A stretch of DNA of 64,000 nt, from NCBI RefSeq assembly GCF_020085105.1, contig NC_058055.1:8382822-8446821 (forward strand), read 5' to 3'. Each line of letters starts with the position of its first letter. The stretch's first letter is position 1. Position numbers and translations under genes: made by a program. Of the stretch, positions 8,215-62,621 are shown piece after piece. This DNA comes from Siniperca chuatsi. Lineage: Eukaryota > Chordata > Actinopteri > Centrarchiformes > Sinipercidae. The notes beneath the pieces are model-generated. The model saw only the letters and a program-made list of their open reading frames with translations. It did no database searches and was not told where the DNA came from.

Positions 8215-8451
8215 CGTGAAGACCGTGCCGTGAGACTATAAAGTGAAACATCATTGTTGTCTGCTAACTTGTTTTCAGAAAGCTAAGGAATACGTACATA
8301 GAAAATAACAGACAAACAACTTCCTCAGCAACAAAGCAAACCCAGCTAAAAACCGTCAGATTGAGAGTAAGTTAGTGGGGGATTTGTACCTTCAGAGCAG
8401 GTGGACGTCGTCTTTGTTGATTCGCCTTCGAGTCGTTGAAGAAGAAGTGAA

Positions 8452-9011
8452 ATGGCCAACGCGGGTCTGCAGATTTTGGGATTCGCCCTGGCCCTTTTGG
8501 GTGTAATTGGATTGATAATTGGCACAATTTTGCCCCAGTGGAAGATGTCCGCTTATGTTGGGGACAACATCATTACAGCGGTGGCCATGTACGAAGGACT
8601 CTGGATGTCCTGTGCGTTCCAGAGCACAGGCCAAATCCAGTGCAAGGTCTACGACTCAATCCTGCAGCTCAACAGTAAGTCACACAATTACTGGATTCAA
8701 ATTATGTGTCGACAAAATTCTTGTCCTTTGGTACAAAGAATCGAAATTGTTATATTTGTATCCATATTATGGGTAGGCCTAATAGCTTGAAAGCACCTGA
8801 GTATCTGACTTTTTTTCTGTATAGGCCTCAAAAGTACCCTAAAAGTCTAAAGTCACATAGGGCTACTGTGTATTTTATCACTGGAAGCTTATCTCTGCGG
8901 TGAAACTCGTTTCAAAGTTAATTCAACTAATTTGACTCCTATACAAAAACATGTAGTACTGTAATCGTGTAACAAGAAATGATGCAACACACTGGCATGC
9001 ACCTGTAGGCT

Positions 9012-9056
<45 letters not shown>

Positions 9057-9177
9057 GTCTTTCGGCCATTTTTGACAATTATTCCTGAGCTTTCTTTTAC
9101 AACATTTGGCTGTTCCCGTGGCTTTGGGCTAATGGTTTAGTCACTTATTAACACGCCTTCTTATTCATTCAGAATCC

Positions 9178-9252
<75 letters not shown>

Positions 9253-11885
9253 GTTTAAACCACACTGAGGCCTCACCTGCACTGTGCAGCAGAGCGGCTT
9301 GATGGTTCAGTGCCAGAGATTATTTGTAAAAAGCCAAATTCTTACATTCTTTCCACTTGATAGGCGGGAATGTGTGCATCACTTCTACACTTAGGCAATG
9401 ATTATCCTATAGCCATTGGTCAGTACAGTTATCCCTGCATGTGTGGAAACCCCTATAGTGTAGGACTTACATTACACAGCATAGGTAGTTACAGGTTACA
9501 CAGACCCTGTATGAGCCACTGTTTAGTCAACATATCTAAATACCAGCCCCACAACAGTTGCTTTGTCTTTGGCCTAGAGGGCAGCAAATTAACGCAACCA
9601 TCCTTTGCTGTGTTTTCGGCCCAAAAATGTTGACTCTTACTTACATAATGTCTGGAAAAGTTCTAGTAAATGCAGCATTTAGTGTAATTTGAAGTGTTTC
9701 AACAGTTATACATTAACCAGGTTAAACAATTACAAAAGGCCCCACCTCCGGGCTATGGTATGTGGCAGTGTGGGTGGTTTAGGGAAATTTATTTCAAATG
9801 AACTGTTTATTCATTGGTAATCATGTAGGCCATTAGCAAAGAAGAACATAAAGCTAAATGAAGAAGTTGGAACAATTGTTACAAACAAGTCAAAAATCAC
9901 AAATTTGTGTACTGTATCTGTCTTTATGACTTATCTTAAAGCAGTGGCTAAATGGGTCAATGGTGGCACGACCGTTGGATTCTTCATTGTACATGTTTCA
10001 AATTTAACTAATGGATTGCCTGAATGCCACTGAGGAAAATCTTCTGTACAGTTTGATGTATAGGTCCCTCCCTGTGTGCTTAGCTTGCTACATAATCACT
10101 ACAATGCACTTACTACTGTAAGTTACTTGTTGACTTGTGAGTTGGAAGTTCACAAAACTGTCCATTTCCTCCAAATAGCTTATGTGTCTCTTGTTATTTT
10201 TGCTTTATTATTTTCTATCTCACTTATCAAAATGTTTGATACAATATCTGTAGCACAATGAGTCTTATCGCCTCTTCAAATATGAACACAAACCAACTTT
10301 GATAAACATTGTGTGATTAAAGCTGTGGTTAGATATGGAGCAAGTGCACAAATAATAGCTCATTATTCAGAAATACCTGCTCAAGATCTACAAACACACA
10401 CCTGAAGTTCAGGAACAATTGACACCAAAACTGGGAAAGTGTGACAACTAGACTGTGACTCTTTAGTTGAAGCCACATTGGGCATTCTTCACATTTTGTA
10501 GAGGGCCTGTATCATTCTGGATGGTAGTTTGAACCTACAAAATGTCCACCTGCTGATAAGCAGGCTGTGAGTACTTGAAATTGGGAGTGTCTTCCTTATA
10601 ATGAAACCTGAAACCTGGTTAGACCTGTTTCTGACTTGCATGCATACACACCCAATCCCCCACCCCCCACCCCAGAGTTTCTTCCCACTTCCGGTTAGAG
10701 ACAGTTTCTGTGGTTCGTTGTTATTGGGAGCGGCAATGAGACACAAGAGACAGAAGCCACTGTGTTGTACATGAATGGACAGTGTTTGTTTGCACTGCTT
10801 TTATTTTTTGTTTTTGTTTTTTTTTACAAATGTTGGCTTCTAAATCCACAAAAGCAAAACATAATAGAGGCTTTTAATAGAAGTGTACAAATCACTGTAG
10901 AAATTAATTTCAAATGCCAATAACTGTTTGTTACTCCTATTAAGTGTTAAATATTTGACACACTAACTGATGGATTAACCCTATCCTGTCCTCTTTTCCA
11001 GGTGCCCTCCAGGCAACTCGCGCTCTCATGATTGTGAGTATTATCGTAACGGTGGCTGGCTTGGGCGTAGCCTGCATGGGAATGAAGTGCACCAACTGTG
11101 GAGGAGATGACAAAACGCGCAAGTCCCGCATTGCCATGACTGGTGGCATTATCATCCTGATTGGATGTAAGAAGCCATTTAATATTGTTGTTTTGTTTTT
11201 TGTTTTTTTTTTGTTGTTTTTTTTTTTGTTTGTTTTTGGATTCATAACAGTTTCAGTGATTATTCTTCTTTACTTTCCCACAGCTTTGTGTGCCATTGTT
11301 GCTTGCTCTTGGTATGCTCACGACATCATCCAAGCCTTCTACAACCCTTTCACCCCTGTCAATACCAAGTAAGTACATATAAGCCGAAAACTTCACCTTT
11401 TTATGCGCAATTTTTGTGCCTGTGCTGTTTTTTATTTTTATTTTTGTATTAAATTGAATCAAATTTACATCGCCAGTCAGAGCAGTTGCCACCCAACAAT
11501 AAACTGAATATACCTTTTTAGCACAATACAATGTCTCCAAACATGTTAGATGTGCTGGTTTGTCTAAGATACCAGCTTTAAGCTCTTCCTCCCCCTTCTG
11601 TAGCCAGACGTATGTGTGTGTGTGTGAGCACTCCTAGTGCTGATGAATGTGTTGTGCATGTTTGTTTTATATTAGTTAGAGCTCAGCTGGCATCTGTTAA
11701 CCCTTCTGACTTACTGTAACTTCTCTTTCTGAAGGTACGAGTTTGGTTCTGCCATCTTCATTGGCTGGGCTGGAGCATTCCTGGCTGTAATAGGAGGTGC
11801 CATGCTGGCAGCATCGTGCCCCAAAAACAAATCTACACCGAAGTATCCCATCTCCAGACCCCCCAGCAGCAAGGAATATGTTTGA
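8452..11885 (+). CDS. cldn7: Claudin-7 (tight-junction protein), 4 exons
   Basis: Four-pass membrane protein that seals and sets ion selectivity of epithelial tight junctions. Coding exons are 8452-8674, 11002-11166, 11284-11368 and 11735-11885; all introns are GT-AG and the phases join cleanly to 207 codons plus stop. The claudin signature of the first extracellular loop is complete: Trp30, then Gly49-Leu50-Trp51, Cys54 and Cys64. Membrane segments lie at about 8-28, 80-102, 117-138 and 161-185. A GMKCT segment follows TM2 and the C-terminus is SSKEYV, whose last residues form a PDZ-binding tail as in claudin-7. Length matches the family (human claudin-7 is 211 aa) and the start MANAGLQ aligns with that protein. 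Intron 1 (2.3 kb) holds a T41 run and a long AT microsatellite. Which teleost duplicate (a or b) this is cannot be decided here. Confidence 0.93.
9015..9055. repeat. Poly-T tract (41 T)
   Basis: Uninterrupted T41 in cldn7 intron 1. It could be the poly-A tail of a minus-strand retroposon, but no body is recognisable beside it. Confidence 0.85.
9182..9244. repeat. (TA)n microsatellite, about 31 units
   Basis: Pure TA dinucleotide run in cldn7 intron 1. It is likely to be length-polymorphic and prone to assembly error. Confidence 0.9.
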
Positions 11886-19263: not shown

Positions 19264-22200
19264 TTATTTAGCATCCTTCACCGTCTGTCTCCACTTCCAC
19301 AGCTCTGCAACAACCTAAAGAAAAAACAAAAAATTGTGTTAACATGGTGGCCTACGTCATGTGACAGGAACAAAGACATTTAAAATATCTAAACACAAAA
19401 AGGAACAAAACCAAATCACTGTTCAAATTCTTTCCTGTGTACATTCTTTCTGATCTGCTCCTGTACATAAAGATTTCAGTGTATTTACTTTAACATTACT
19501 TCCACTGTGTGCAATTTGAAAATAGTGGTAGGATAAAAAAATAAATAAATAAAAAAAAAAAAAAAAAAAAAAGAGTAAAAAGCAACAAAGACTGGGCCAG
19601 TTTCAATCAGGACTGCCACCCCTTCTTTACAAATGTATACCATCAGAATTTTAATTTGAAAGATGCTCATTTCCTATCATTACTCTAAAATGCAAAAAAG
19701 AAAATATGCTATAAATCACAAAAAATGACATTCTGATTCTGAACATTTTTAACCTCTAGTTAAGATTCATCTTCCAGTCAAATTCTTGAGATGGGAGGAC
19801 ATCAGTTTACAGCTAGTACAGTAAACTAGTACTGTTTATGACACATTGCAGCTGTTAAGGAAAGGTCTGTATGTGTAACTGGCAAAGTTAACCGTGACCA
19901 GATTTCAGTTAAATTGTTTGGGTAGGTTAAAAATGTCAAATTTAATTCTGAGAGACATCAACTCATGAATGAGAAGCATCAGCAGTAACAAGCTTGTTTG
20001 TTTATGTTAACATGTCTTTCCCAAATTTTATAGCCAATAAACTCAAAATAAACTTATAAAATACAGTTTCCTAATTAATTTTCCTAGATAATTTATGGCA
20101 ACAATGGGTGATAAATATTGCCCGGCACCATGAGCTTGTACTGTACCTTGGTATCTGAGACTCTATAACCATGCTTCACGAAGTTCTCAAACTTGGGCTG
20201 GAGTTTAGGTAATGTTACTCCCTGTAAAATGGAAAAAATTACAACAAATGAGCAAATTCAAACGGTCTTTAGTCATGCCATATATTACCCTTTTAAAATG
20301 GAGGACAAAGATAATAAAACAAACTGATTTAAAAAAAAAAAAAAAAAAAAGGACACCAACCTTCTTCACTGCCTCCATCATCTTGGCTTTAATCTCAGGA
20401 AGCGTTAAAGTTCCTTTGGGAGTTGGTGGGGTTTTAGGTGACTTGTCACCCTTACCTTTAGGAGTCTTTTCCTATAAAAGAACAAGTTTAGATATTAGGA
20501 AAGAGGAAAGTTTTTGTTTGTCTTACCAATTGGAGAAATTAAAATTTGTATAAGAGAAAACTTTATAGGCATTTATAATTTTTGAAAATATGAATATACT
20601 GACGACATCCAACAATGGTTAAGCAGAGGTTAACCAACATGCTATTCAGTAGTAGTCCAGTTTATGAAAACAAATTGTTACCTGCTTTGTGGCTTGAGTG
20701 CTGGGTTTAGGACTCTTGCCATTCTGAGCAGGGGCTTTTTTGGTTGGTGTTGGCTTGGCCTGTAAAAAAATTAGCAGCTGTTAGATGGGAAAGAAGTTCA
20801 TTCAGCTGGAACTGCCAAAAATTCTATCAAACAGGTGCTTGCCTTAACAGGTGACTCTTCCTCCTCACTCTCCTCGTCCTCATCCTCTTCATCGTCCCTA
20901 AAAAAAACAAAAAAACAAACAAACCCAAGATTAAATATCAAAACAAAAAAGGGCATACAATCAAATACATTTAGAAGTTATTTAGAACGGATGCAAATCA
21001 TTTCTGTGTCTTGGAGAAAGGCTTGTAGGAAGCCGCAATATCTTGTTTTCCCCCACTGTTTCATTATATCTGAACACTAACAGACATTATGCTAAAAAGC
21101 TCTTTACATGCAATGTGAACTGTTATTTTATGTTACTCAGGTAGCAGTACAACTCAGAAGCCAAGTTATTTCCATTTACAAAAACAGGCAGATCTAAAGG
21201 CACACCTGTAAATCAAACTAACCTAGAACAGCACTCCCTAAACACAAAGTCAAGTGGACAGGAGCGTCACTGTCAAACTTCCAAATAGAAAAGTAGCCGT
21301 TTCCGAACAACTTGAATGACACATCAAATGTTTAACATGGACCGAAGCACATCAACATTTCACTTGCAAACAATCAAGCTGTTGAAAGATGGAAAAAATT
21401 GGATTCTCAAATGTGGCAAGAAGTTGTAAAATTGATGTCATGTCATTAAGACATAAATAACAAGGAAACTTTCATAAAGTTTTAAACTATTGTTGAATTA
21501 CATATTATATGTAATATTTTAGATAAAAATGTGCTTTAAGTTGACAAGTAGAACAGACTTTGATTTTAGCGTTGAACATTTGAACACCACTGTGTTCGTC
21601 ATCTGAAAAGGTTAGCATAGCGTGAATGTGTTTGAAGCTTGACACTCACTCATCTTCGTCGTCATCATCATCATCATCATCGTCGTCGTCATCCTCCTCC
21701 TCCATGTCCATTTTAATTTTTTTCTGTGGGGAAGTAAAAATTAGGTTGTGGTCATTTGAATTTTGACCAATTTGAAACTAAAATAGTAAAGGATGGAAAA
21801 CAAACCTGAGACTTGAGGGCAGGGGAGGAAGCAGGTCTTTTCTTTGATGTTGTGACATCTTCCTCCTCTTCTTCATCATCATCTTCATCAAAAGACTGAT
21901 CACCCTCCATCACTTAAGAACAATTTAGAGATGTTAGACTAGTTTTAAAACACTTCCACCAAAACCAAATGGATATTGCTGTGAGATATAGATGATAGAA
22001 GCTTGCTTATTCAAACATCGAAATTAGTTACTAAAGCATAAAGCCTAGCAATCCCCACAATAAGCAGACACTGAAAATATACACAACTTTTTTTTTGCTT
22101 GCAATAAATACTCACTGACAAGGTGTTGTCCACTGATATGGATTGGACCAGAACCTGCCTTCAGACGGAAAATCGCTGGTGGTGTGATTGTGAAACCACC

Positions 22201-25046
22201 GAGACACACCTGCAACAAACACTCAACATTAGCATCCACGTTGTACGGTGTTGAAAGGTGCGCTCTACACTAACTGGGTGCTAGTGTATTTATACCTAAG
22301 CAAAGAAAACAAGACGTTTACTTACACTTGGCAGGGTAGAGGGCTTAAGTGAAACCAGCGCTGCATTGATTTTCTGACCCTCTGTGTCTTGTCCTTCCAC
22401 CTCCACCATGTGAAGTTCATCTTTCGTGGTGGGGTCCACACAGGCCTAAAGAGGACACGGCAACAGTTGATTGTAATTCTATGTTAACCTTTAGGGTGCT
22501 TTCACACCTGACCGGTTTGCTTCGATTCAAACAAACTCTGGGGCGTTTGCCTGTTTGGCTCAGTTTGTTTGTGGTGTGAAAGCAAAGCAGACCAGCCACA
22601 TGATTCGGTGATGGTTTTTATGTGATTTTAGCAGGAATCCAAAACAATACAATTAAATCCATCTGCTGATCGTCAACTGTCAAGAAAGTAATCTGTATAA
22701 GCGCTGTACATAACCATTTATCGGATATCACCTGGTAACCATGGTAGCATGTATCGTGAGTCATTTTCTTGATACATAAACTGGAGGTATGTTAAGCCTG
22801 CGCCCTATTCTGTGGAATTTAGCAGTTCCTTTATCAAAAGTAAGTGAAAAGGTGCGTTCCCCTCCTGTTTCTACTCATTTGACAGCATTTATGGCATATG
22901 AGGTCCAGTTAAGAGTTTATACTATGAATGCTGATAATCATTTTTTGTGAGCTCTGTGTGACACCAGAAAAGATGCAGTGTGCAGCATGACTTGCTGTCA
23001 GTCACAGAATTTTATTTAAATCCTGAGTGCTTCAACAAAATGAGTGTGTGGAACATTTGTAAGAAACAAAGAGGCCAGCATGTATGACTGTTTGCGTGTG
23101 TGTACCCCAGAACTACAGTGGGGAAAAACCCATTGACCTTGTTAGAGGGGTGTTTAGATAAGACTCAAATTGGGTTTCAACCTCAGGCATGTCATTAAGA
23201 AAATGTGAGTGTAACTTAAGCACTAAGCATGAGCAGGTGGTACAACATTTTTTATTTTTTTTTAAATCACCTTATGAGACAGTATGCTAATTTTTAACTA
23301 CCAATTACATTTAAACTACTAATTAAAATGTGGTTTCACCACTTAGAATTCAGTTTGCTTCATTCATATTCAGCTTCTTGTGCCACATCCAGGCACACGG
23401 GACCTTATTCTCCACATGTTGATTGGCGCACCATTTCTCAGAGGCTGCTAACAGAGCACACTATTCAATTAGCCAGCCTCGAGCCACTTGACACTATGCC
23501 TTTTTTAAAATAATTTAAAGCAAGTAATTAGGTTTATTCAATCAACTGTAAATCTCTGTACACAGTGAGTGCAATAGCCAAAATATAACGGCTATAATAT
23601 ATAACATACTGAAAAATAACGGTTGCATATACTGTACCCTTATCTTTGTTCAATATCGATTGAATCCATATACAGTGGTGAAAAAAATTCAAAAGTGGTT
23701 TCAAAAATAGTGTCCAGCAGAGAAATATAGAACATCTGACAAGTTATAATAAATGACATGTGTTTAAGCCACCTTTGAACACCTTAGATGTCAGGGTACT
23801 TACCATCCTTAGATCTAGCTGATGCTCAAAGTCATCGTCCTCAGGATTGAACACTACCTCCTTACCAGCTTCCAGCACGCACCCTGATGAAAAGATTTCA
23901 AATAAGAAAACAACTTGCGCAAAATGTCCCGACAGCAGTAGTTTGAGGGCTGAAGCATATAAATACTGAGATTTTATCCTGTGACAGATTAGTAATTTGC
24001 TTTATAAAACATAACCGAAAAGACAGATGTGAAAAGGTGACTTCACTGTAGTGTGCTTTCCCTCAGACAGGCAATGATTTGGGTGTAAAGTGCTATATTT
24101 CAAATGCACACAAGAGGGAGCCACACAGACTACTGATATGAATATTTCCACATGGCCTTAACACAGGGAATCCCCTCAATTAGAAATTATTTCCCTGAAA
24201 ACTATGTGGTGCAAATTCAACTATTGGAAGTAGGTGTTGCTTCATAACAAAATGTGAAGGTGAGAACAATGGCAGATAAATACACTGTTACTGTTCTTCT
24301 AAATTAGTTAAGAATATAAACTGGGTGCTGGGATGCAGAGATACAGATGATCCAAGAAAACTTGATAAATTCATGTTGATATAGTGTGACCTGATAGTTA
24401 ATTCAGTCACAACGACTTTAATGGCCAAAAACCATTATTAAGTGTTTGCTGGGAAAGGGTCAAACAAGGTAAGGAGGTCTACATTAAATCCGGAGGAGGA
24501 AGTCAGCAGGGTCCGCATGTGTTTGGTCCCACGTTCAGATGGCTTTTCCAGACGGACTAAAAACTCAGGTCTAACTTTAAGCTAAAGTTTTCAGTTAATC
24601 AAAATGAGATGTAAATTAAACTATAAAACATTTTCAACGTCTAGTGTAAAGAAAATGCTTAAATATCAACATTGTGCACAACACATGGGCGCCGCCATGT
24701 TGATAGCTAACCACGTGTAACGTTATGGCTAACTCAGACTGTCTAAAGCCGCGCTGTTCACCAGGTCTTTAACCTCCTGCTACAATATTAGAGTGATTCA
24801 TAACGCACGCAAGATATTACACTTTAAATGACTTAATATTACAATAGGGACATTAAGTTACCTTCCATTATAGAGTGCCAAACGTAACTAAATAGCTGAA
24901 TTTATTCGTTTTCTTGTCCTGATAACAGCAGTCAGACATCAAGACACGTAATGTTAAACATCTTGAAGTCACACACGACATGCAGAAGTTATCTCACCGT
25001 AAAGAAAGGTCTGTGGTGCCATTGGTTCCTCGTCTAACCCGTTCAT
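19264..25046 (-). CDS. npm1: Nucleophosmin (nucleolar histone/ribosome chaperone), 11 exons
   Basis: Abundant nucleolar chaperone that binds histones and pre-ribosomal particles and shuttles between nucleus and cytoplasm. Exons in transcript order: 25046-24998, 23883-23804, 22445-22326, 22209-22116, 21912-21806, 21723-21650, 20897-20843, 20759-20682, 20471-20361, 20221-20147 and 19314-19264. They total 894 nt in one frame: 297 aa plus stop (human NPM1: 294). Residues about 13-115 are the nucleoplasmin core, with signature pieces [24 protein letters not shown] and [13 protein letters not shown]. An acidic patch (122-133), a bipartite nuclear-import signal (KKRPASS to KKIK, 138-154) and a long Asp/Glu tract (about 158-189) follow, then a Lys/Pro linker and the C-terminal nucleolar-targeting helix bundle ending [12 protein letters not shown]. 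The two Trp residues needed for nucleolar retention are present at 287 and 289. The intron after the acidic tract has a GC donor. Whether it is the a or b duplicate is unknown. Confidence 0.95.
21662..21700 (-). repeat. npm1: In-frame GAT/GAC repeat coding for poly-Asp
   Basis: Twelve consecutive Asp codons, six of them identical GAT, inside the acidic tract of npm1. A trinucleotide run like this can vary in length without breaking the frame. Confidence 0.8.
22490..22600. mobile_element. Small MITE-like element in npm1 intron
   Basis: The words GGTGCTTTCACACC (from about 22496) and GGTGTGAAAGC (near 22573) form an imperfect inverted pair flanking about 60 bases, as in a short non-autonomous DNA transposon. 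Autonomous parent and target duplication not identified. Confidence 0.45.
22605..23800. other. npm1: npm1 intron 2, no further feature
   Basis: Intronic sequence with a TTTTTTATTTTTTTTT run near 23250 and nothing I can name; the short open frames here have no family resemblance. Confidence 0.5.
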
Positions 25047-28234: not shown

Positions 28235-31200
28235 CTAAATCACGTTTTCAAACAACTGCATCGATCTCATCATGGTTTCGTCCTGCGGAGAGAGAAGACA
28301 AGAAATCATGGCAGAATGATGCACCCCTGTATATGGTAATGTATAGTCAGCCCTGCTACATAAGTTGCATGAAGACAGCAGCTTACAGATATAACATCAT
28401 TTTTCATTACACATTAAACAGCACATCAGATTCAAGTGTTTCGAAACTCTGGAGAACATGTTGATGTTTGGATAAGTCAGAACACCGGGGAATGCCCTAC
28501 TCTAAGTAAACAAGTTTGTAAAAAATCTACAAAGGTAGGGAGAAGATCAAACAAACTATTTAAATATTTACAAGATCAAACTAACAATTTACATATTTAC
28601 AGGAGTAAGAGTGAGAGAGAAGCTCAAACGAACTATTTACTCTCACAGAAGAATCAGAGAAAATATTGTTCTATGTTGTGTATGTATTGTAGAAATTCAA
28701 CTATTTATTATCTTAAACTATGTATGTATTTATCTATTTACTTATGCAAAACTATTTATGAATCAGTATCTGTTTACATGAATGTAAAGGTGTGTGTATT
28801 AGTACATATCAGAGAGGAATCAGAAAATATTATTCTATACTGTGAATGTCATATAAAGAGTCAACTATTTATTATCTAAAACAATGTATTTATTTATGTA
28901 TCTATTTATTCATGCAAAACTATTTATGAATCAGTATCTGTTTACAAGAATGTGAAGGTGTCTGTATTTGGCTATATATAGAATTCGTCCTCATCATCAT
29001 CAAGATCCTCATTGCTTCCCTCCTGTGTGATGGTGAGTTTAGGTGCAGAGCTTGAGGGGCACGGTTTAAATGAATAGCCAGCTGAGGTTCCAAAGAGTTG
29101 CAGCACTTTATTTGGCAGCTTATGCTCATAGCATGAATCCCCAGCCATCTTCAGGCCATATCTGATATATAGAATAGAGCTGAGGGTCTGCAGTGACATA
29201 CGGCTCCAGAGTTTGGTTTTCACCACACCCATTTGACTGAATAGCCTCTCTACTTCAGCATTTGAGAGTGGGAGGGAGAGGACAGAGACTGCAGCAGTGG
29301 CCAACTCCTCAAATGGGTTTAGGTCAGCTGCATCCCTGCAGTTTTTAACCTCATTCCAGAATGCCCTTGTGTTAGCAGTTTCTTCCCACTTAAGCAGGTG
29401 GATGTTCCTCCACTGTTTGATGACTTTGTCAATGGTGGAAGGACAGTATCCCAAAAGGCTGGTAATTTTGGACATGTCTGCCAAGCTTTTGTTGTGCCTC
29501 AGTGTCTCCCCCACATTAAAGAGAGACATATGCTGCAATATCTCCATGTTAGTGGGGAGCCCTGCCATCAGCTCATTTGCCAAGGATATGGTGTAGCTCA
29601 CACATCTCATCTGCACATTGCTCTCATTTTCAGAGGAGAGGCTCAGTTCTGCTGCCTTGGCCTCACATGTGTAGCCAAGGTATGGCTTGGGGCTGATGTG
29701 CCCTTCAATGGTTTTTTGAGCACATCAATCAATTTTAGCCAACGGGTTAATGACACTGTTGCAGACTGACAGATTGTACACCCCTGTCATCACAGATGCA
29801 GTGTCTGTGCCAATGCCCAGGAGGTTCTCTTTTTTGAGGGAACATTTCTCAAGGAAAGTCAAAATAGTTCTGGCTATTGACCTGGTATCCCCACCCTCCA
29901 ACTCAATCAACTCAATCTAAAAATGTGGAGATCACCGTTTCCTTCTCTTCATTAAAGTAGCGGACCACCACACCAAGGTACTTTGACACGCTAATGTCGG
30001 TGGATTCATCACGGTGGAGGAGACTGTATTTCTGGTCACCAACACCATCCACTAATTTTTTAAGGAAGCATGGTGCCAGCACGCCATTCATCATTTCCGT
30101 ACACTTAGTGCGGTGCATCCGGAAATGTGTGGCAGCAACAGAATCTGCAAAGGCAGCTTTTTGAGTGCCACACCGATGTGGTCGACTCCCATTCCTTCCT
30201 ATAGTTGTGTATAGTTTGGAATTTGACATGGTAGCAAAAGTTTAAGGACCCAGGAAAAGCAGAAACAGTTGTGAGAAAGTTAAAGCAGTAATGGGAGAAG
30301 AATGGATGCATGATTAGCTTTTTATTACTTGTAAATATAAAATAAATCACAAATAAGTCACAGCAGTGGTAAAACTTTGAAACAAAGGGAAAAAGAACAA
30401 TGCAGGCCGGGAAAGAAATGGTGATCAGTGATTGGTAGCTTGGCACAATGTCTGGCACGACTGTCAGGCATGCGCAGCTCATTTCTATGTCTGACTCCCT
30501 CCTGTGCAGCTCGCGGTGCAGCTGCTCTCTCTCTGAACTCCCAGCGAGCAGCGTGACGGCGTCTCCTGCCTACCCCACACGCCACACCTACTGACTGCCT
30601 GCACACGGCGCAAGAGGATCATGGATCATGTAGAAGAGGTGAGGGAGAAATGTCACTAGCTGTCTCTCAAAAGTTGCTAAATTTGTCTATAGTCGCTTTT
30701 TAGAAATAAAGTCGCTAAGAGGGTCTGAAATCTAGTGACAAATGCGTCAAGTTGTTTCCAATGAAAGTAGCTAGCACTAGCTTCAAAAGTCGCTAAAAGT
30801 CGCAAGGTGACGTCATATGCTCATTTGTATGTTGATGACGCCATCAAGTACCATTTGCATACAGCGCAGTGCAGTGAGGGAGCAATCACCTAAATTTAAG
30901 AAATCTTTGGTCAAATAATCACAAACTCACTACAGGTTCATCGTGTATTTGAAGTAAGAAAGTAAAAAAAAGAGAAAAAAATTAAAATTCTACAAAGGGA
31001 TGGAGGAGGGAGAAGATCAAACGAACAATTTAAATATTTACACGATCAAACGAACTATTGACATATTTACAACCTGTAGTAACATCTTAATCCAGAGAGA
31101 AAGCGTGAGAGAGAAGCACAAACAAACTGTTTCCATATTTACAAGCTATAACATCCTCATCCAGAGATCCGGAGGAAAAGAGTGAAGCTGCCTGCCCCAC

Positions 31201-34200
31201 ACACCACACACTTAACTTGGACTCCCTGACATCTGCACATCTTATCAAGAGATGCCATCAACTCAGTTTTCCCTGGACATCTCGCATCCAAGTACTAGCC
31301 ATGCCCACACCTGCCTAGCTTCAGTCATTCAGCAGAAACAGGGTACATGTTGGTATGGCTGCTGGCTGTTGCAGTTGACAGCTCCAGAGGTTAGAAAGGG
31401 AACTTCTGTGCTTCGATTGAATGTTACATATTGTTTCCCAAAGGTCAAGAATTAACTTCCATGCTCAAATTTTAAATGTATTTTTACATACATATAACAA
31501 ACATGTATAGGAACATCTCTAAGTAACTGTAGGTACATTCATGCATTTTATGATCTGTTTCTTTATATATTCTTTTGAAAGTTGGTAACATATGGTTAAA
31601 TGTTTTTATATATTTTTTTACATCTTTTATTATTACATATAGAAATAGACAGCAACGACAATACATACCTCCTGGCAGGCTATAATAAACTCCTCTAAAG
31701 TCACCACTCCATCTTTGTTTTTATCCATTTTCTATGGAAAAAACAATGTAATATAATTTAAATCAGTATCAAATAGAAGCAAATATTGAATAATTATGTT
31801 GCTGTGGAAATGTGTTGTGAGCTCATGTTGCAGCGAACCTAGCATACAAAAACTGTAGAAACTATAGAACACAAACTAGAGAATAAAGAAAGGTTAAAAA
31901 TAGTTGCTATATGGACTGTAGGGACTAGGATTTCTAGTCATATAAAACTTTATAAGCCTTATTCAAAAACGTGTAGTACGTATACTGTATGTATAGTACA
32001 GAATGCATATGTAAAGTGTCTCTATAAAACCAGAGAGGTTAACTGGGAAACTTCTGGGATATGATAAGAGACATTAAGAGTAAACACAATGGATTTAAAA
32101 TCACCTGTCACTGTTAACAAAAATGTTGACTTTTGATTCTTATTGATGTTAATCTTATGTATTGGAAATTAACCTGAAAAAAGGCATCCACATGCTGCTG
32201 TGGGACATCTCCCTTTAGGGCCGGGTAGGTGTATTTGCCCATCATATCATAGATGGCCCTCACAATATCAGTCATTTCCTGAAAGAAGAGAAGATTCACA
32301 TTGTGGTGAGACATAGACTTTAGATGGCACACAAACCACTGTATACATTGTGACAGCGCAGTCTCACCTCTCTGTTTATGTAGCCATCTCTGTTAATGTC
32401 ATAAAGGTGAAACGTCCACTCAAGCTTTTCTCTCAGTGTTCCTCGCAGCAGTATAGACAAGCCCATTACAAAGTCCTGGCAGCAATGGAACAGAAGACAA
32501 ACTCAGATTCTGAAAGCATCATAGCACATGGAATAAAGAAAGGAGCAATATTTGACATAAAATGCAATTACAAAGGAGGATGAGGATTGTTTTTACCTTA
32601 AACTTAATGGATCCATTGTTTGTAGTGTCAAATGCATTGAAAAGATAATGTGCGTACATGCTTGCATCTGCAACACACACAAAAATGAATGTGTAAGGTC
32701 TCCTGTTATGAAAAAGCTTCACAGAGCAATGAAAAAGTAACATTGCACTTTACCTCCATGAGGGAAGAACTGTGCGTAAATGTGTTTAAATGTCTCCTCA
32801 TTTACCACACCACTTGGACATTCCTGTGGGAAAAAAAGAATTAAGGTTACTCTACTCAATGACATCAATGTTTTTTTTTCCTGTTTGTTGGAAGAATTCA
32901 CCAGAACCGTGCAGTCTCAGTCATGTGACCCTAATCATATTTGTCCTTGGAGTATCTTCTGCAACAAACATATTTTAAGATGTGAGCCAGCCACCATGAA
33001 TGGCATGCTAACATTTGTTTTCTAACATTATTTTACTCTGACACAACTCAGACTTCATTTTGTACAGTCAACACTATTTTTTTTTACCTTCAGCAGAAAA
33101 TAAATAGTTCCCAGTAATTGTTCATAGCAAAGTCTTTAGTTTGGGATACATCAGCTACAGTTAAAGATAGTTTCAGGAAAGTAACATTTCTGCCATGCTA
33201 GCAGATTATGGCTATATCTCAACAACTGACTTTTTGTCCAGCACTACCAGCAGGTCAAAGTTTTAATTTGTCCAATATTTTGGTTCAGACCAAATACTGG
33301 CAAAACTAATAACATTTACATAAGTCTCAGCTGGTCATTGTGTTTTGTGCTAACTAGCAAATGTCTGCATGCTAACACACTAAACTAAGATGGTGACCAT
33401 GGTAAATATTAGCCTATACAACTGCTAAACATCAGCATGTTAGCATTGTTATTGTGAGCATGTTAGCATGCTAACGTTTGCTGTGCCTAACAACAGCCTC
33501 ACAGAGCCGCTATCATGGCTGTAGACTTAGTCTTGTTCAAATAGAAATGATCTGCATGGCTAGATACCACCAGGGGTAAACAGGAATTGGGGTGATCTAA
33601 ATCTTAAATTGAAGTATCTGGAATTCATGCTCTGTACCAAAGTAATGTAATAATAAAATCAGAAAATGTGGGATTACATTCTTGAAACCACGATAGAGGA
33701 TCTGCAGCTCCTGTTTGGTGAAGTTAGTTTGGGCTTCCAGTTGCTCAAGACCCTCTGGCCTGTGACACACCGTTGTCATCTCGAGCTCATCATCTGTTTT
33801 ATCTACAGGGAAGAGAAAGTGAGAGAGATAGAAAGAATAGTTATTACAGAGAATCATGTCAAGACTTTTACAATGCATAATTAACATATGCTCTTCCCAT
33901 TCTTTAGAAATATGAAAACTGTAGTACACAGGAAAGAGACAACTCAGCAAAGCTTGAGAATGTTAAATCAGCAGGAAACACGTTGAAAATTTCATTAGAC
34001 AGCAGAAAAATAAGGCAGAAAGAGGATCACATAGAGGTAAAAAGAGAGAAAAAGCTGGATTTGAGAATAACAGCATGTACTTCACAAATAGATTTGCCCT
34101 TAGGAGTTGTGGGATTTTATTAATGGCAACATGGTGCTCAGTTTCGGGTGCTGTGGAGATGGATGGTGGTTAATGATGTGAAGAGTTCTGGTCCTGCTGC

Positions 34201-37200
34201 GGGCCAGTGTTTGTCACTACGACTGTCTCCAGCTACAGGGCAATACTAACATCCCGACATCCGGCAGTGGACACAATCCACACACCAATGAGTTCTCAAA
34301 CATGAGCAAACATCCAAGAGAAAACAACCACATAAAGTGCTCTCTGGAAGTCTTTTATTGCATTCACTGGCAGCGGCAGAACATTTGAAAGAATGGAGAA
34401 AAATGAAACCTAAAGTAGGCGGATCACACACATACAGCCTTATATTGGTGTGGCAGGATGGCATATTTACACAAGGTGGACTCAGTAACTTGCATGGTTA
34501 CTTTTTTATCCCAACTGGTCCCTGAGATATAAGCAATATATTTTGCTGTTATGCAGACCAACTGATATTATCCTTGGATGAATTATTTTAACACAAGGAT
34601 CAAAACCCCATTCAGTCCTGCTAAATTCCACAATGAAAGCTGACCAGCAAGTGATACATTAATGACTTGACAAATGTTCACATGTAGGCACACACGTGAG
34701 TCCAAACAAGCTTTTGTAACTGTGTCAGCATCATCTGGCTCAGTCAGCCTTTAAGAAAAGGAGATTAAAATGAATATGATACTCCTGCTTTTTGGATGGA
34801 GGTGGTGACCCATTCATTTCAGCCCATTCAACAGTGGTGTCAAGATTAATCCTCAACACTGAAACTGTATCTGGTATCATGCATCATCTGCTAGAGTTAA
34901 TCTTAATTAGAATTTCATATCAAATATCCTGATGGTCATCCACTTTTTTTTAGCAATTCCCAGAGGCTGCATCCGAAGATAAGTTCTGAAAGTAAGCTCT
35001 AATCAGCTGTATTTGTGTCTTTGTACAAGAATAATTGCTTCTACTTCAATCTTTGAGTCATTTTCAATTGGATTCTGCTTGTTACTTATTAGATTTCAGT
35101 TTTGATCCAAGCCATCGGTACACCACTTGCAGCTGCACACTTGCAATTACGTGTGTTTACTAAGATGAAACATGTTCTCAAGGCTTACAAATATGTAGGT
35201 TACACACAGTATTTATGAGGCTACCCTATTAGCTTTTTGCTAATTTAGAAATAATATGAAATAACAAAATACAAGTTTGAAAGAGATCTTCCACATGCAT
35301 GGAAAACTATAAGAATAATCCAGAGAGATACTACACCAGCTAGTATAACCAATTTATTGTGATATTAGCATATTCTGAGACAGATTTGTTGTTCCTTTTT
35401 ACAGATTCCCCCTTTTTAGGCTACTACTGAATGCTGAACTAGTGTGGAATATTTAGAATATTTACTGTCAGTTATCAGCTGAACATAGAGTGGGTGGTTA
35501 TGTATTGCTTTCTCTCAATCTTCCTCCTCCAATCTGAGCTCATGTTCCTCCTCCCTGATCCTTGTTGTCATGGGGATGGACAGAATGTGAACAGTGGTGG
35601 GTATATTGGATCAACTGATTAAAAAAAAGGTGTCAAACACAATTTGTACATTTATTTTCCCAGTGAATAAAAGTACCTCATCACATGAGGTGTTGTTTTG
35701 CTGTGCTTGTATACATGTATTCTTTCTGCCGGGGAGCATTTGCTTTCCAAATAGTGTGATCAGAAACAGATGAAATGAAATGAGGGTGAGAAAAGGAAAC
35801 AGGCAGAGGTGTTGATTAGAGGAGGGGTGAGACATGGAGAGTTGGGGAGGGAGAAAGGAGGTGGCAGAGTGTGAAGAAAAAAAAGGGGAGAGGAAGAGAA
35901 CAACACATGGCAGAATAGGATTACACAATATGTTTAAAGAACAAAAAAAGACCAAAAAAGAGGGATTTAGTGAACGACAAACACTAAGCTAGTGATCACA
36001 AAAACAAAGATAAAGATTAAGTAACTTTTACTCCGGTTTTGCTCAAGTCAAACCCTGTCACTAACCTTTCTGACTTCATAAGGGTCAAGGGTCAACCACT
36101 AGAATGTGAAATATTTACAAAAGCATCATAACCAATAAATAACAGAAGCAACTATTCAGTGAGTTCTTTACGTAGAATAGGACACAACCTAACTTTGATG
36201 CTCACATGTTGATTGGACTTCCATAATAACACACAAGGAAGCATGATAGCTCATTTTGCTTGTAAGGACCAGGGCTATTGGCTATTGATTGACAGTGTGA
36301 TAGACCAATCGGTTCGTTTGCTAGCATCACTTAAACATTAAACAGTGAGCGGGACGCCGGTGTTCCGCAGGGACTGATAGGGTTGACAGGTTATATCTTG
36401 TTTGTTTAATCCAGTAATTGCCTGGAGTCTCTGCTTGTTGCCTTGCAACCTCACAGTGACGACAAAACTCCAGGAAGCTACTGCCCCCAGCCAAGAATTC
36501 GTCCGGCACATAACCAACCATAAAACCACAATGTGTCACTTGCACATGTTGTAATTAGTGAGTTTTAGAGATGCTGGTAGGCAGATTCTTTCTGTGAAGA
36601 GAGCCAGGCTAGCTGTTTCCCCCTGCTTTTGGTCTTTGTGCTAAGCTAAGCTAACTGGCTGCTGGCTGTAGCATCATATTTACTGTCCAAACAATAGAGT
36701 GGTATAAATCTTCTCATCTATCTCTCGACGAGAAAGGCAACAAGTGTATTTCCCAAAATGTCAAACTATTCCTGTATTTCTAACGACAAAAAAAAGGTTA
36801 TTTCACACTGACAGCAATTAGTTTCTATTTTCTTTTACTATATATTTTTTAACATTCATGTCATGGAACAACAGCAGCTGTTGCTTCAAATCTTCACATG
36901 TATCCACCATGCTGGTGACATATAGAATGGCTGTGCTGGTGGCAGGTGGCACAAACAGCAAGTACTCCAGACAGAAATATCCAGCATGTTTTTGAAAAAA
37001 GATTTTGGCTGGTTTTGCACATATACAGTACATTTACTGTATGCTCAGTGGTCTACGACATCGTATTGTATACACTTAGCTTTGTAACTCTGACTTATTT
37101 TTATTTGTATACTGCTTCAACCTACCTCTCTGCCCAGTTGTAATACTTATTTTCCCTCCTGGGAATCAATAAAGTCTCATCTATCTTGTCTTAGCTTATC

Positions 37201-40200
37201 TCACATACCTCTGCATGGCTGATAACACAAGACAAACTTTAATGGAGCTAAAAAAAAACAGGATGACCTCAGTACATTATTTTTCTATTTTGTTCAAAGG
37301 CTTTCGAAAGGCTTTTTATCAAAACAAGGACAAATGATTCTATCCCGTCTGTGCAAAAACAAACACCAAGCACTGCCGGTGTCTTGTGGCGTGTTACATC
37401 TAACGTCAAAGAGTAATTGCTTTGTTTGCTGGTTCGTCTGTTTTGTCTCTATTTCATGTTGCTATAAATTCATCATTCATCCTAGCTGAGTATTGTATTG
37501 TACACACTCTCTTCTTGTGCCCCTTCAACCCAGTCTCCATGACAACGAGGATCTCAAGCATAAGGCCAGGGAGAGGTATGATATGTGAGCTGCGTTTTAA
37601 TTCACATGCTCTCGCCTGAACCCTCATTCGCTCCCCCTTTCTCTTTCACTCACTCACTCACTCACTCACTCACTCACTCACTCACTCACTCACTCACTCA
37701 CTCACTCACTCACTCACTCACTCACACATTCAACGGGCAACCACCCATGCACAACACACACACATAATCATAGAGTCAGGGGCAGTGATTTTGCTCTCTA
37801 GTTATTTTCAAGGACATCCTACTTCATGGCATACTGTAATCTCTCCATCATGAGTTATGCTTCACACCTCTTCTCACTTGATCCCTCACAATTTAAAAAA
37901 ATAACTATTCTTATTTTCTGTTTTTCCATATTCTTGTATATAAAAATTGCATCAATGCTACTGGTTAATGTACTTAGCATGTATATGCCATTTGGCTATT
38001 TTTGCTGTTTTCTGACTGATTTCCTTGTTCAAAAATGTAGAGTCACTCCACAGACATATGGCAAACATATAAATGTTATTGCTTATGTTAAATGTGCATG
38101 TGTACAATGCATAGAAAATAACAAACACAATTACAACTGGTCCAACTTATTATCTGAATCTTTTCTTTCTGTGTGTGTGTGTGTGTTAAGGTTATTTCTC
38201 TCTGCTCTCCCTCTCAGTTTAGTCTAGCTTTCTGTTGCTCTTTTGTCTTCTCACCATCTTTTTCTGACTAATGTTTACATACCTCTGGATGGTCTCCTCT
38301 GCTTGGTTTGCATGGTCAAAGTGCCCACCACTGCACCCATGTTGTCACCGTGGAAACCAGCCTGGTCAAACAACCCAGAGTAATAGTCCTCTATTTATTT
38401 CACGATTTTGTAGCCTGTTGTTCTGTCTTTATCAGCCTCCACAGCTCTGTATCTTAAAGGGGCTTTGCCCCTGTTGACTCTTCTCACTGGTTTCAGATCT
38501 CTTCTTTGAGCTGATTCTCTTGGCTTTCTGATCTCTTTCTCCAATCACACACACAAGCTGCACACTCCTGCGCCACTCCCTCCGTTCTGTGCCTCATTCT
38601 ACTCATTTGTCATCCTTTCCCCCTCTTTCTAGCTCCCTGCCTCCTCATGCCCTCATGTTATTGTGGAGTGCTGGTAACCGATGCTGTACTCAGGAATAAC
38701 ACAACTGACAAGTGAATGGTAGCAGGTGAAGGACATGTATTTAAAGCTCACGGATCGTCATTACTTGTTTCTCTCTTTACTGCCCTAACACATATATACA
38801 CACACACACAGACACACACAGAGACACACACACAACCATCTCAACGACGGTTAATGATGACTTCAGTCCAATACCACTTCAAATTAGTGCTCTGCTCCCT
38901 GAGACATGGTTTGTATCATAATGAGCCTGTAGATATATGTTAGCTGTGAAGGCTGCCCACTGGTCTGTGTGTGTGTGTGTGTGTGTTAATTCACCACAGC
39001 AACGCAGCTAGACCTTTTCCTCTCTCTCTCTCATTCTAATGTGGAGGGCAACAGAGAGTGAGTGTTTTTTTTTTACTGTGGTGCAAACATGTGTGTTTAA
39101 CGGTGTCATTGTATTTTCACGGAGCAACTTCAATTGAACAAGAAAATGACTGTGTGCATTGGGGGAAGGAAAGCAGTGGGAGTGAGTAATGTTTATTTCC
39201 CTACAAGTGCTGAGCCTAAAAAATCAACCAGGATTGTTGGAAGCAGAAGTAAACGTTTATTATATTATAAATGCCTTTTCTACTTAAACTACCACTTAAA
39301 CTAATGAGTAAAAATACAGTATCACTACACTCTGTTTTAGGATTTGATATGTTATCTGACACAAAGGGGCAGTGATTCTCTGCAGGACTCAGCTGAAGAT
39401 CAAAATTCTCAATAAATTGATCTAAGGTGAGGCATTTAAAAAGCAACTGCTTTGGTCTATGAGAGATCCATGTGCTGCATGGAGTGAAGCTCAGAAAATG
39501 TGAATGTCTTTTTAAATATTCCACTGGCTGCAGACCAGAAATGTAAATGCTCTCTCTGCCTCACTCTTTCTTTGTGTGTGTGTGTGTGTGTGTGTGTGTG
39601 GGGGGAATTTTTTAAACCTCTCTTGGTTTAAAAAATTCATGGACTGCCATTTTTTCAACGCCGTTTCAGCTTTCTTGTTTCTTGAAAGTTACGTTCCACT
39701 TTCTCTGTTAGAGCTGTAAAAAGAGCAAAATCCATGTGAAAGGAGTGCGGTGGCATTGACTGGCAAAATACAGATGTTAAACTCTGTAGTCTTTCATAAA
39801 TAGAATATTTATTCTGTTATTGTTGTGCAAGCCTTGAAAACTTATCCCTGCTATGTCTTTGTCTACACTGTTTGAATAGCAGAGGACTGCGCAGAACAAA
39901 GTATGCAGGTCACTAAGTTGTGTGTGTTTGTGTGTGCAGTCCTGTGATTGCCCTGGTGGAGCTGAGGTAAAAACTTTAATGCATTGATTAATTAAACATA
40001 AAGTCATGTATAATTATTTTAAATCTCTCACGCAAAGTGTCCTACCTTTTGCTTACTGTCCTGTTCCCTTTTGCATCCAAATTTTCTACCATTTAAATAT
40101 TGTCACACATAAAATAAAGAAGTGACCTTTTCACCTATACAAATCATTTAACACTCGTGCATCTCATGCAGTGATTTCCCTGCATTTGTCTATCAAATAT

Positions 40201-61299: not shown

Positions 61300-62621
61300 C
61301 TACAGTTTTCTGCGAGACAGTCCTCTGCAGAAAAGCAGCTCTCCATAGGCCGTGCGAAAATCCCTGTTGAAGGCTGGATACAGGATGGGGTTAAGAGCAG
61401 AGTTAAAATATCCCAACCACAGGACCACAGAGTGAAGTGTAGTAGGAGGGTTTGTCTTTCCCTTTATTCCCATGCAGGTGAAAAAGGTGAAGTAGGGGAA
61501 CCAACAGATGACAAAGGCCCCCAGTACAGCTGCCAGAGTCACTGTAGCTTTGTGCTCTCGGGCTATGGCTGCAGTTGATGCTGTGCGTGCAAATGATGGA
61601 GTGGTAGCACGAATACGCCGCACCTGAAAAGATTGGTTAAGAAAAGGTTAGAGAGCCAGAAGACACAGAAAATGATATGAGCTCACTCAATGATCTGACG
61701 ATAAAGGATTTAATACAGCAATACGTTACAAGTGAACATGACTCTGTGAATATCTTAATGTCTGCTGCAAATGTTTGTGTCCACTAAAATGCAGATCACT
61801 AATACAAAATCATTTTTCCGAAATAGTAGCCTCAGACAGATGCAAAAAGGAAAGCGTGCCTCAAGTTATGACCTTTTATATCCCACCTCAGCATCAGTTT
61901 TAGAAAAATAATAAAACACACTGACCTGTTCTTGTGCCACTCTGAATATGCACAGATACATTCCACACATGAGCAGCAGAGGCAGGTAAAATGAGCCAGT
62001 GGCATAAATTAGAACATAGTTGTTATTCCATTCAAACTGGCAGTAGCGTCCCTCCTTGTCCTCTTCCCCCATGCCCCAGTCCAAGTGCTGCACTCTGTAG
62101 TCTGCTGTGTTCCAGCCCAGGTGGATGGGCACAAAGGACACAGCCAGTGACAAGGCCCAGATGGCGATCATGGCCAGTGTCACCCTTGGAGGGGTAACTC
62201 TCCGGGAGTAGCTAAGGGGAGCTGAAATGGCTAGGTATCGGTCCACACTGATGGCCAGCAGGGTCAGGATGGAGGATGTACACAGCAAGACATCCAGTGA
62301 GATGTAGATGTTACACAGGGCTCCTCCGAGGGGCCATTTTCCGCTGCGCAGCTCCACAGTGGCAGACAAGGGCAGCACTAGCAGGCCTAGCAGAAGATCT
62401 GTCACTGCCAGCGACACCACAAAGCAGTTAGAAATGCGCCACAGTCGACGGCTGAGCCCAACAGCCAAACACACCAGCACATTCCCACCAATGGTCAGAA
62501 TGATGAAAGTTACCAGGACCAGCCAGCGGAGAGCTGTGGAGATCATGGTGACCTCCTCTTCAGGCTCTGGGTCGCAGTGCTGCTGCTGGTTTCTCAGTAG
62601 AGAATGTTCAAGCAGGCTCAT
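61300..62621 (-). CDS. hrh2: Histamine H2 receptor-like GPCR, 2 coding exons
   Basis: Class A seven-helix receptor; H2 receptors couple histamine to Gs and cAMP. Coding exons 62621-61926 and 61623-61301 join in phase 0 through a GT-AG intron to 339 aa (human HRH2: 359). Visible landmarks: Asn47 (TM1), Asp75 (TM2), Asp110 in [11 protein letters not shown] (TM3 amine anchor), DRY at 127-129, the Cys103-Cys194 pair, CWFPY at 272-276 (TM6) and NPILY at 310-314 (TM7). The best H2-specific matches are [36 protein letters not shown] and [12 protein letters not shown]. The TM5 site that carries Asp186 in human H2 is Tyr206 here and the Thr190 site is Ser210. The cytoplasmic tail is short, ending SRRKL, with no palmitoylation cysteine beyond Cys331. 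The N-terminus lacks an N-glycosylation sequon. The intron falls in the third cytoplasmic loop. Confidence 0.88.

Follow-up and report, generated by a model that had tools for sequence, protein, structure and literature searches.

A receptor gene of Siniperca chuatsi carries a tyrosine at the site of Asp186 of the human histamine H2 receptor (H2R), which raises the question of what such a receptor recognizes: another amine, histamine held in a different way, or histamine as usual with other consequences for H2-selective ligands. A preliminary description of the locus had put forward the first two options, taking Asp186 and Thr190 as established histamine contacts. Here, we considered the gene model, the identity of the gene, the placement of the substitution and the published pharmacology of the human and zebrafish receptors. 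All coordinates refer to the window, that is, the whole stretch of 64,000 nucleotides analysed.

Gene model and receptor class

The gene lies on the minus strand and encodes a seven-helix receptor in two exons (62621/62546..61926 and 61623..61300, stop included). Counted from the first Met at 62621, exon 1 (61926..62621) encodes TM1-TM5 and ends, as an open reading frame, at the splice donor CAG/GTCAGT. It is followed by a GT-AG intron of 302 bp (61624..61925; phase 0, in-phase) and by exon 2 (61300..61623), which encodes TM6-TM7, a short C-terminal tail and the stop. The reading frame is open through both exons. Translation more probably begins at Met26 (ATG at 62544-62546), which sits in an ACCATG context, than at the first Met. 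In the zebrafish hrh2b mutant d8, eight base pairs, TTGCTAGT, are deleted after nucleotide 162, at residue 54 (PMC5334454). The equivalent eight bases here are CTGCTAGT, and the first of them is nucleotide 163 when counted from Met26 (residues 54/55). The numbering of the zebrafish start thus matches the count from Met26, which favours this start. The protein would then have 314 residues, compared with 335 in zebrafish hrh2b (PMC5334454) and 359 in human H2R. The tail stops shortly past helix 8 (window positions 61300-61330, ending in LSRRKL), so few phosphorylation sites would remain in it.

Both exons match Pfam 7tm_1 (E 1.3e-46 for exon 1, 8e-16 for exon 2), and the landmarks N1.50, D2.50, R3.50 (DRY), W4.50, P5.50, W6.48 (CWxP) and N7.49-P7.50-Y7.53 are the same as in human H2R, as expected for a class A (rhodopsin-like) receptor. 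The aspartate at position 3.32 that characterizes aminergic receptors is present as Asp110 (Asp85 from Met26; GAT at 62292-62294), equivalent to human Asp98. In phmmer searches against PDB chains, human H2R was the top match for both exons (E 2.7e-55 and 1e-33). It scored 191 bits for exon 1, against 138 for the β3-adrenergic receptor, the next kind of receptor, and 119 bits for exon 2, against 77 for the octopamine β2 receptor. H2R accounts for the top five PDB entries with either exon, so that, among solved structures, HRH2 is the closest receptor relative. The H2-like assignment, the retained TM3 aspartate and the intact class A landmarks of the preliminary description are therefore borne out. 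A pseudogene, which that description had already thought improbable, is ruled out by the two open exons, the canonical splice sites and the presence of the landmarks tested.

Compared with human HRH2 (PDB 8yn3, 8pok, 9ixj and 7ul3), 165 of 303 aligned residues are identical, including 104 of 163 within the transmembrane helices, whose ranges are approximate. The human motifs DRY, CWFP and NPxxY are all found. The two proteins differ at 5.42 (D to Y), 5.46 (T to S), 6.58 (R to M) and 7.35 (E to H), and the fish receptor has eight more residues in ECL2, six more in ICL3 and a much shorter C-terminal tail. The extra ECL2 residues fall before the cysteine of this loop, in an acidic-rich segment (62043-62108, minus strand). 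Scans of a genome-contig collection and a viral-contig collection for a related locus found none.

Relationship to the teleost hrh2 copies

We take zebrafish hrh2b to be the copy on chromosome 10 and hrh2a to be the copy on chromosome 14. Using human NPM1 and KCNIP1 sequences as tblastn queries, two neighbours were located on the minus strand: exons of npm1 at 20147..23884 (best E 4e-16; the match at 23884-23798 has E 0.002) and exons of kcnip1 at 28238..38340 (best E 5e-31; first-exon match at 38340-38278 with E 7e-4; last-exon match at 28285-28238 weak, E 0.05). The order is therefore npm1 (20.1-23.9 kb), kcnip1 (about 28-38 kb) and hrh2 (61.3-62.6 kb), all in the same orientation, and a TLX3 homeodomain query gave no match in the 64-kb window at E up to 1. 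In the published comparison, zebrafish chromosome 10 and the corresponding fugu, Tetraodon, stickleback and medaka chromosomes show Hrh2 in linkage with Kcnip1 and Npm1, while in the chromosome 14 type Tlx3 is flanked by Kcnip1 on one side and by Hrh2 on the other (PMC2446394). The window displays the former linkage, with no Tlx3 between Kcnip1 and Hrh2, and differs in this respect from hrh2a. The absence of tlx3 is supportive rather than decisive, because zebrafish chromosome 10 is said to carry Tlx3b too (PMC2446394).

The published zebrafish oligonucleotides point in the same direction. The hrh2b qPCR reverse primer (PMC10196818) matches the joined exon ends at 19 of 19 bases, where the best of 60 shuffles reached 15. 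In total, 19 zebrafish oligos, ten for hrh2b (the 8-base deletion included) and nine for hrh2a, were slid along the coding sequence with 60 shuffles each, and the best match exceeded the shuffle maximum for 5/10 and 2/9 of them, respectively. Placement by protein register retained nine of the ten hrh2b oligos (the qPCR forward primer, with no match above the control, was dropped) and three of the nine hrh2a oligos. Within this register, base identity was 124/159 for hrh2b, as expected for another species, and 46/60 for hrh2a. Four of the nine hrh2b oligos in register (TALEN R, deletion, crRNA and RFLP R) have no shuffle-beating score by themselves; RFLP R matches 12/20 bases in register but 14/20 elsewhere, and the TALEN R and genotyping R oligos share five bases. 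At the amino-acid level, identity was 38 of 46 codons for hrh2b and 16 of 18 for hrh2a, which does not separate the copies: hrh2a, the sister copy, encodes a similar protein in these three conserved stretches. The 46 hrh2b codons, a small sample at positions chosen by primer designers, comprise 20 identical codons, 18 silent differences and 8 residue changes, and this excess of silent over replacement differences is the pattern expected under protein-level constraint. The likeness to zebrafish hrh2b thus lies in the exon-junction primer, the numbering of the start and the gene neighbours of the chromosome 10 Hrh2, and on these three lines we conclude that the gene should be regarded as a teleost hrh2b.

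The window contains other elements around these genes. Beyond npm1, as seen from hrh2, two claudin-family open reading frames (8440-11372, plus strand; PMP22_Claudin E 1.6e-12 and 1.5e-16) probably represent exons of a single claudin gene. A fragment of the C-terminal dimerisation region of a hAT transposase (28972-29724, minus strand; Pfam E 6e-6) lies between the last two kcnip1 exon matches, and a perfect (TCAC)20 microsatellite (37646-37725) between the first and second.

Position 5.42 and the histamine pocket

The codon TAT at 62004-62006 encodes Tyr206 (Tyr181 from Met26) at position 5.42, the site of human Asp186, and TCA at 61992-61994 encodes Ser210 (Ser185 from Met26) at 5.46, the site of human Thr190. 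The position labels follow human H2R numbering, and those of the pocket agree with PMC10901899. As the preliminary description had acknowledged, a shifted gap in ECL2 could in principle restore an aspartate at 5.42. Nevertheless, the spacing between the ECL2 cysteine (45.50) and Pro5.50 is 20 residues in both the fish receptor and human H2R, the phmmer alignment has no gap between this cysteine and FYLPLL, and the fish stretch from Cys45.50 to Pro5.50 is devoid of aspartate. A gap shift is thereby ruled out and the change from Asp5.42 to Tyr is not an alignment artefact; both proposed TM5 replacements stand, and tyrosine in place of aspartate is confirmed from one sequence.

The rest of the pocket is largely conserved. 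Ten residues surround histamine in human H2R, namely D98, V99, T103, D186, T190, W247, Y250, F251, F254 and Y278 (PMC10901899). Eight of them are identical in the fish receptor, the exceptions being D186 and T190. In the outer pocket, Arg257 (6.58) is replaced by Met and Glu270 (7.35) by His. With approximate helix limits, TM5 has narrowly the lowest identity to human H2R of the seven helices (11/24, compared with 12/25 for TM4 and 18/24 for TM6), and Ser5.46, Ala5.43 and Val5.39 all differ from the human residues.

The role in histamine binding that the preliminary description gave to these TM5 residues is only partly supported. In the cryo-EM structure of human H2R with histamine and Gs, D186 is beyond hydrogen-bonding distance of histamine and T190 is 6.5 Å away from it (PMC10901899). 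In the same study, D186T lowered surface expression and, at adjusted expression, left histamine-dependent signalling unaffected, yet it abolished the response to amthamine, a ligand that D186 contacts (PMC11187927); earlier work cited there considers residue 186 crucial for H2-specific antagonists (PMC10901899). Other data are less clear-cut: D186A retained about 50% and T190A 17% of wild-type histamine activation, some histamine tautomers touch D186/T190 in docking (PMC10295836), and in simulations, in which Asp98 is dominant, a minor and less favourable pose places the amine at Asp186 (PMC7766521). Therefore, Asp186 as a histamine contact is an older model, weakened by recent structures and yet not dead, and its status as an established contact, together with that of Thr190, is the part of the preliminary interpretation that is outdated. 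Since the aspartate is not needed for histamine signalling (PMC10901899), we do not treat it as defining the HRH2 gene family, although the fish protein departs from the human Asp5.42/Thr5.46 pair.

Among the mouse histamine, serotonin, dopamine, acetylcholine and adrenergic receptors counted in one survey, H2 is the only carrier of Asp5.42, and in the clade III TAARs of fish position 5.42 is likewise a switch in amine recognition (PMC4695389). These TAARs have Asp5.42 and mostly lack Asp3.32, the reverse of the receptor described here, which is not a member of that family. The literature searched yielded no treatment of residue 5.42 for the H2 receptors of fish, and the consulted parts of PMC3221663 contain nothing on H2 at this position.

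Expected pharmacology and alternative readings

From the sequence, the gene model, the alignment and the neighbouring genes, we infer, with fairly good but far from full confidence, that the locus is a teleost hrh2b whose protein most likely still binds histamine and signals through Gs/cAMP, with a reduced or altered sensitivity to H2-selective ligands. The gene would be one of the two histamine H2 receptor copies left by the fish genome duplication. Histamine would be held through a salt bridge to Asp3.32 and a hydrogen bond to Tyr6.51, and Gs/cAMP signalling would be kept; both are likely because 3.32, 6.51 and most of the published pocket residues are unchanged. The replacement of aspartate by tyrosine at 5.42, with serine at 5.46, would take away the acidic anchor of H2-selective ligands, so the receptor should be less, or differently, sensitive to amthamine, dimaprit, famotidine or tiotidine. 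Taken alone, the loss of Asp5.42 thus points to changes in how H2-selective agonists and blockers bind and not to another amine, and we expect a histamine receptor that differs in its H2-drug pharmacology rather than a receptor for a new amine.

Some observations count against an unchanged histamine response. Tyrosine is far larger than the threonine or alanine tried in human H2R and could disturb histamine, given that the bulky pocket substitutions V99Y and S150W abolished human H2R activity (PMC10901899). The outer pocket also differs (Met6.58, His7.35), and the 17% activity of T190A (PMC10295836) points the same way, although Ser5.46 still has a hydroxyl. Because of the bulk of the tyrosine, the suggestion that histamine is bound differently is possible.

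A stronger version of this suggestion is that the receptor was neofunctionalized, Tyr5.42 and Ser5.46 together with Met6.58 and His7.35 reshaping the pocket either for another main amine or for a new histamine pose in which the tyrosine hydroxyl contacts the imidazole. Indeed, both polar TM5 positions and two outer positions have changed around a conserved core. Nevertheless, we consider it unlikely, as the polar partners of histamine at 3.32 and 6.51 and six more pocket residues are identical to those of human H2R, and human H2R tolerates the loss of Asp5.42 for histamine (PMC10901899, PMC10295836). H2 ligands also act through zebrafish hrh2b (PMC10196818), an argument relevant only if the tyrosine is common to zebrafish. 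In spinal-injured zebrafish larvae, somatic loss of hrh2b, unlike that of hrh2a, abolishes the effect of cimetidine on il-1beta expression, the H2 agonist betazole acts in the opposite direction to cimetidine, and joint loss of hrh2a and hrh2b raises the il-1beta reporter signal, a relationship that the authors call complex (PMC10196818). The larval sleep of hrh2a/hrh2b double mutants is normal (PMC5334454). Since the cimetidine effect needs hrh2b (PMC10196818), there is one fish in which some H2 ligands do work through an hrh2b; if zebrafish hrh2b has Tyr5.42, cimetidine would act there without need for Asp5.42.

Less probable still is that Tyr5.42 is a functionally meaningless change of one lineage or individual, an allele or a sequencing error. 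It was observed in one sequence, and GAT (Asp) and TAT (Tyr) are one base apart, but the gene is otherwise intact and the accompanying changes at 5.46, 5.43 and 5.39 suggest a real divergence of TM5. Finally, the gene might belong not to hrh2b but to an H2-like clade that adjoins HRH2, named GPR187 (PMC6504862) or "Unknown" (PMC4338800). This we regard as highly improbable: the lineages for which PMC6504862 names GPR187, in the parts consulted, are gar, coelacanth, an amphibian, sauropsids and lampreys, teleosts not being among them, and the synteny and the zebrafish junction primer favour hrh2b. The substitution in this hrh2b is best regarded as real, correctly placed and plausibly of functional consequence in a gene already known.

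A broader scenario, which we regard as doubtful, is that hrh2b throughout an entire lineage of fish swapped Asp5.42/Thr5.46, the determinant of H2-selective drug binding, for Tyr/Ser after the genome duplication, giving a natural histamine receptor blind to standard H2 agonists or blockers, or one tuned to another amine. In that case, studies of H2 drugs in these fish would reflect hrh2a alone. If the tyrosine is limited to Siniperca chuatsi or to one allele, it would be a minor curiosity. Fixation in fish hrh2b would make the gene a naturally occurring test of a residue under debate, which older models treat as a histamine contact and the cryo-EM structure does not. A receptor that had evolved without the equivalent of Asp186 and nonetheless responded to histamine would favour the structural view, and would caution that one of the two fish H2 receptors may escape the H2 drugs applied to fish.
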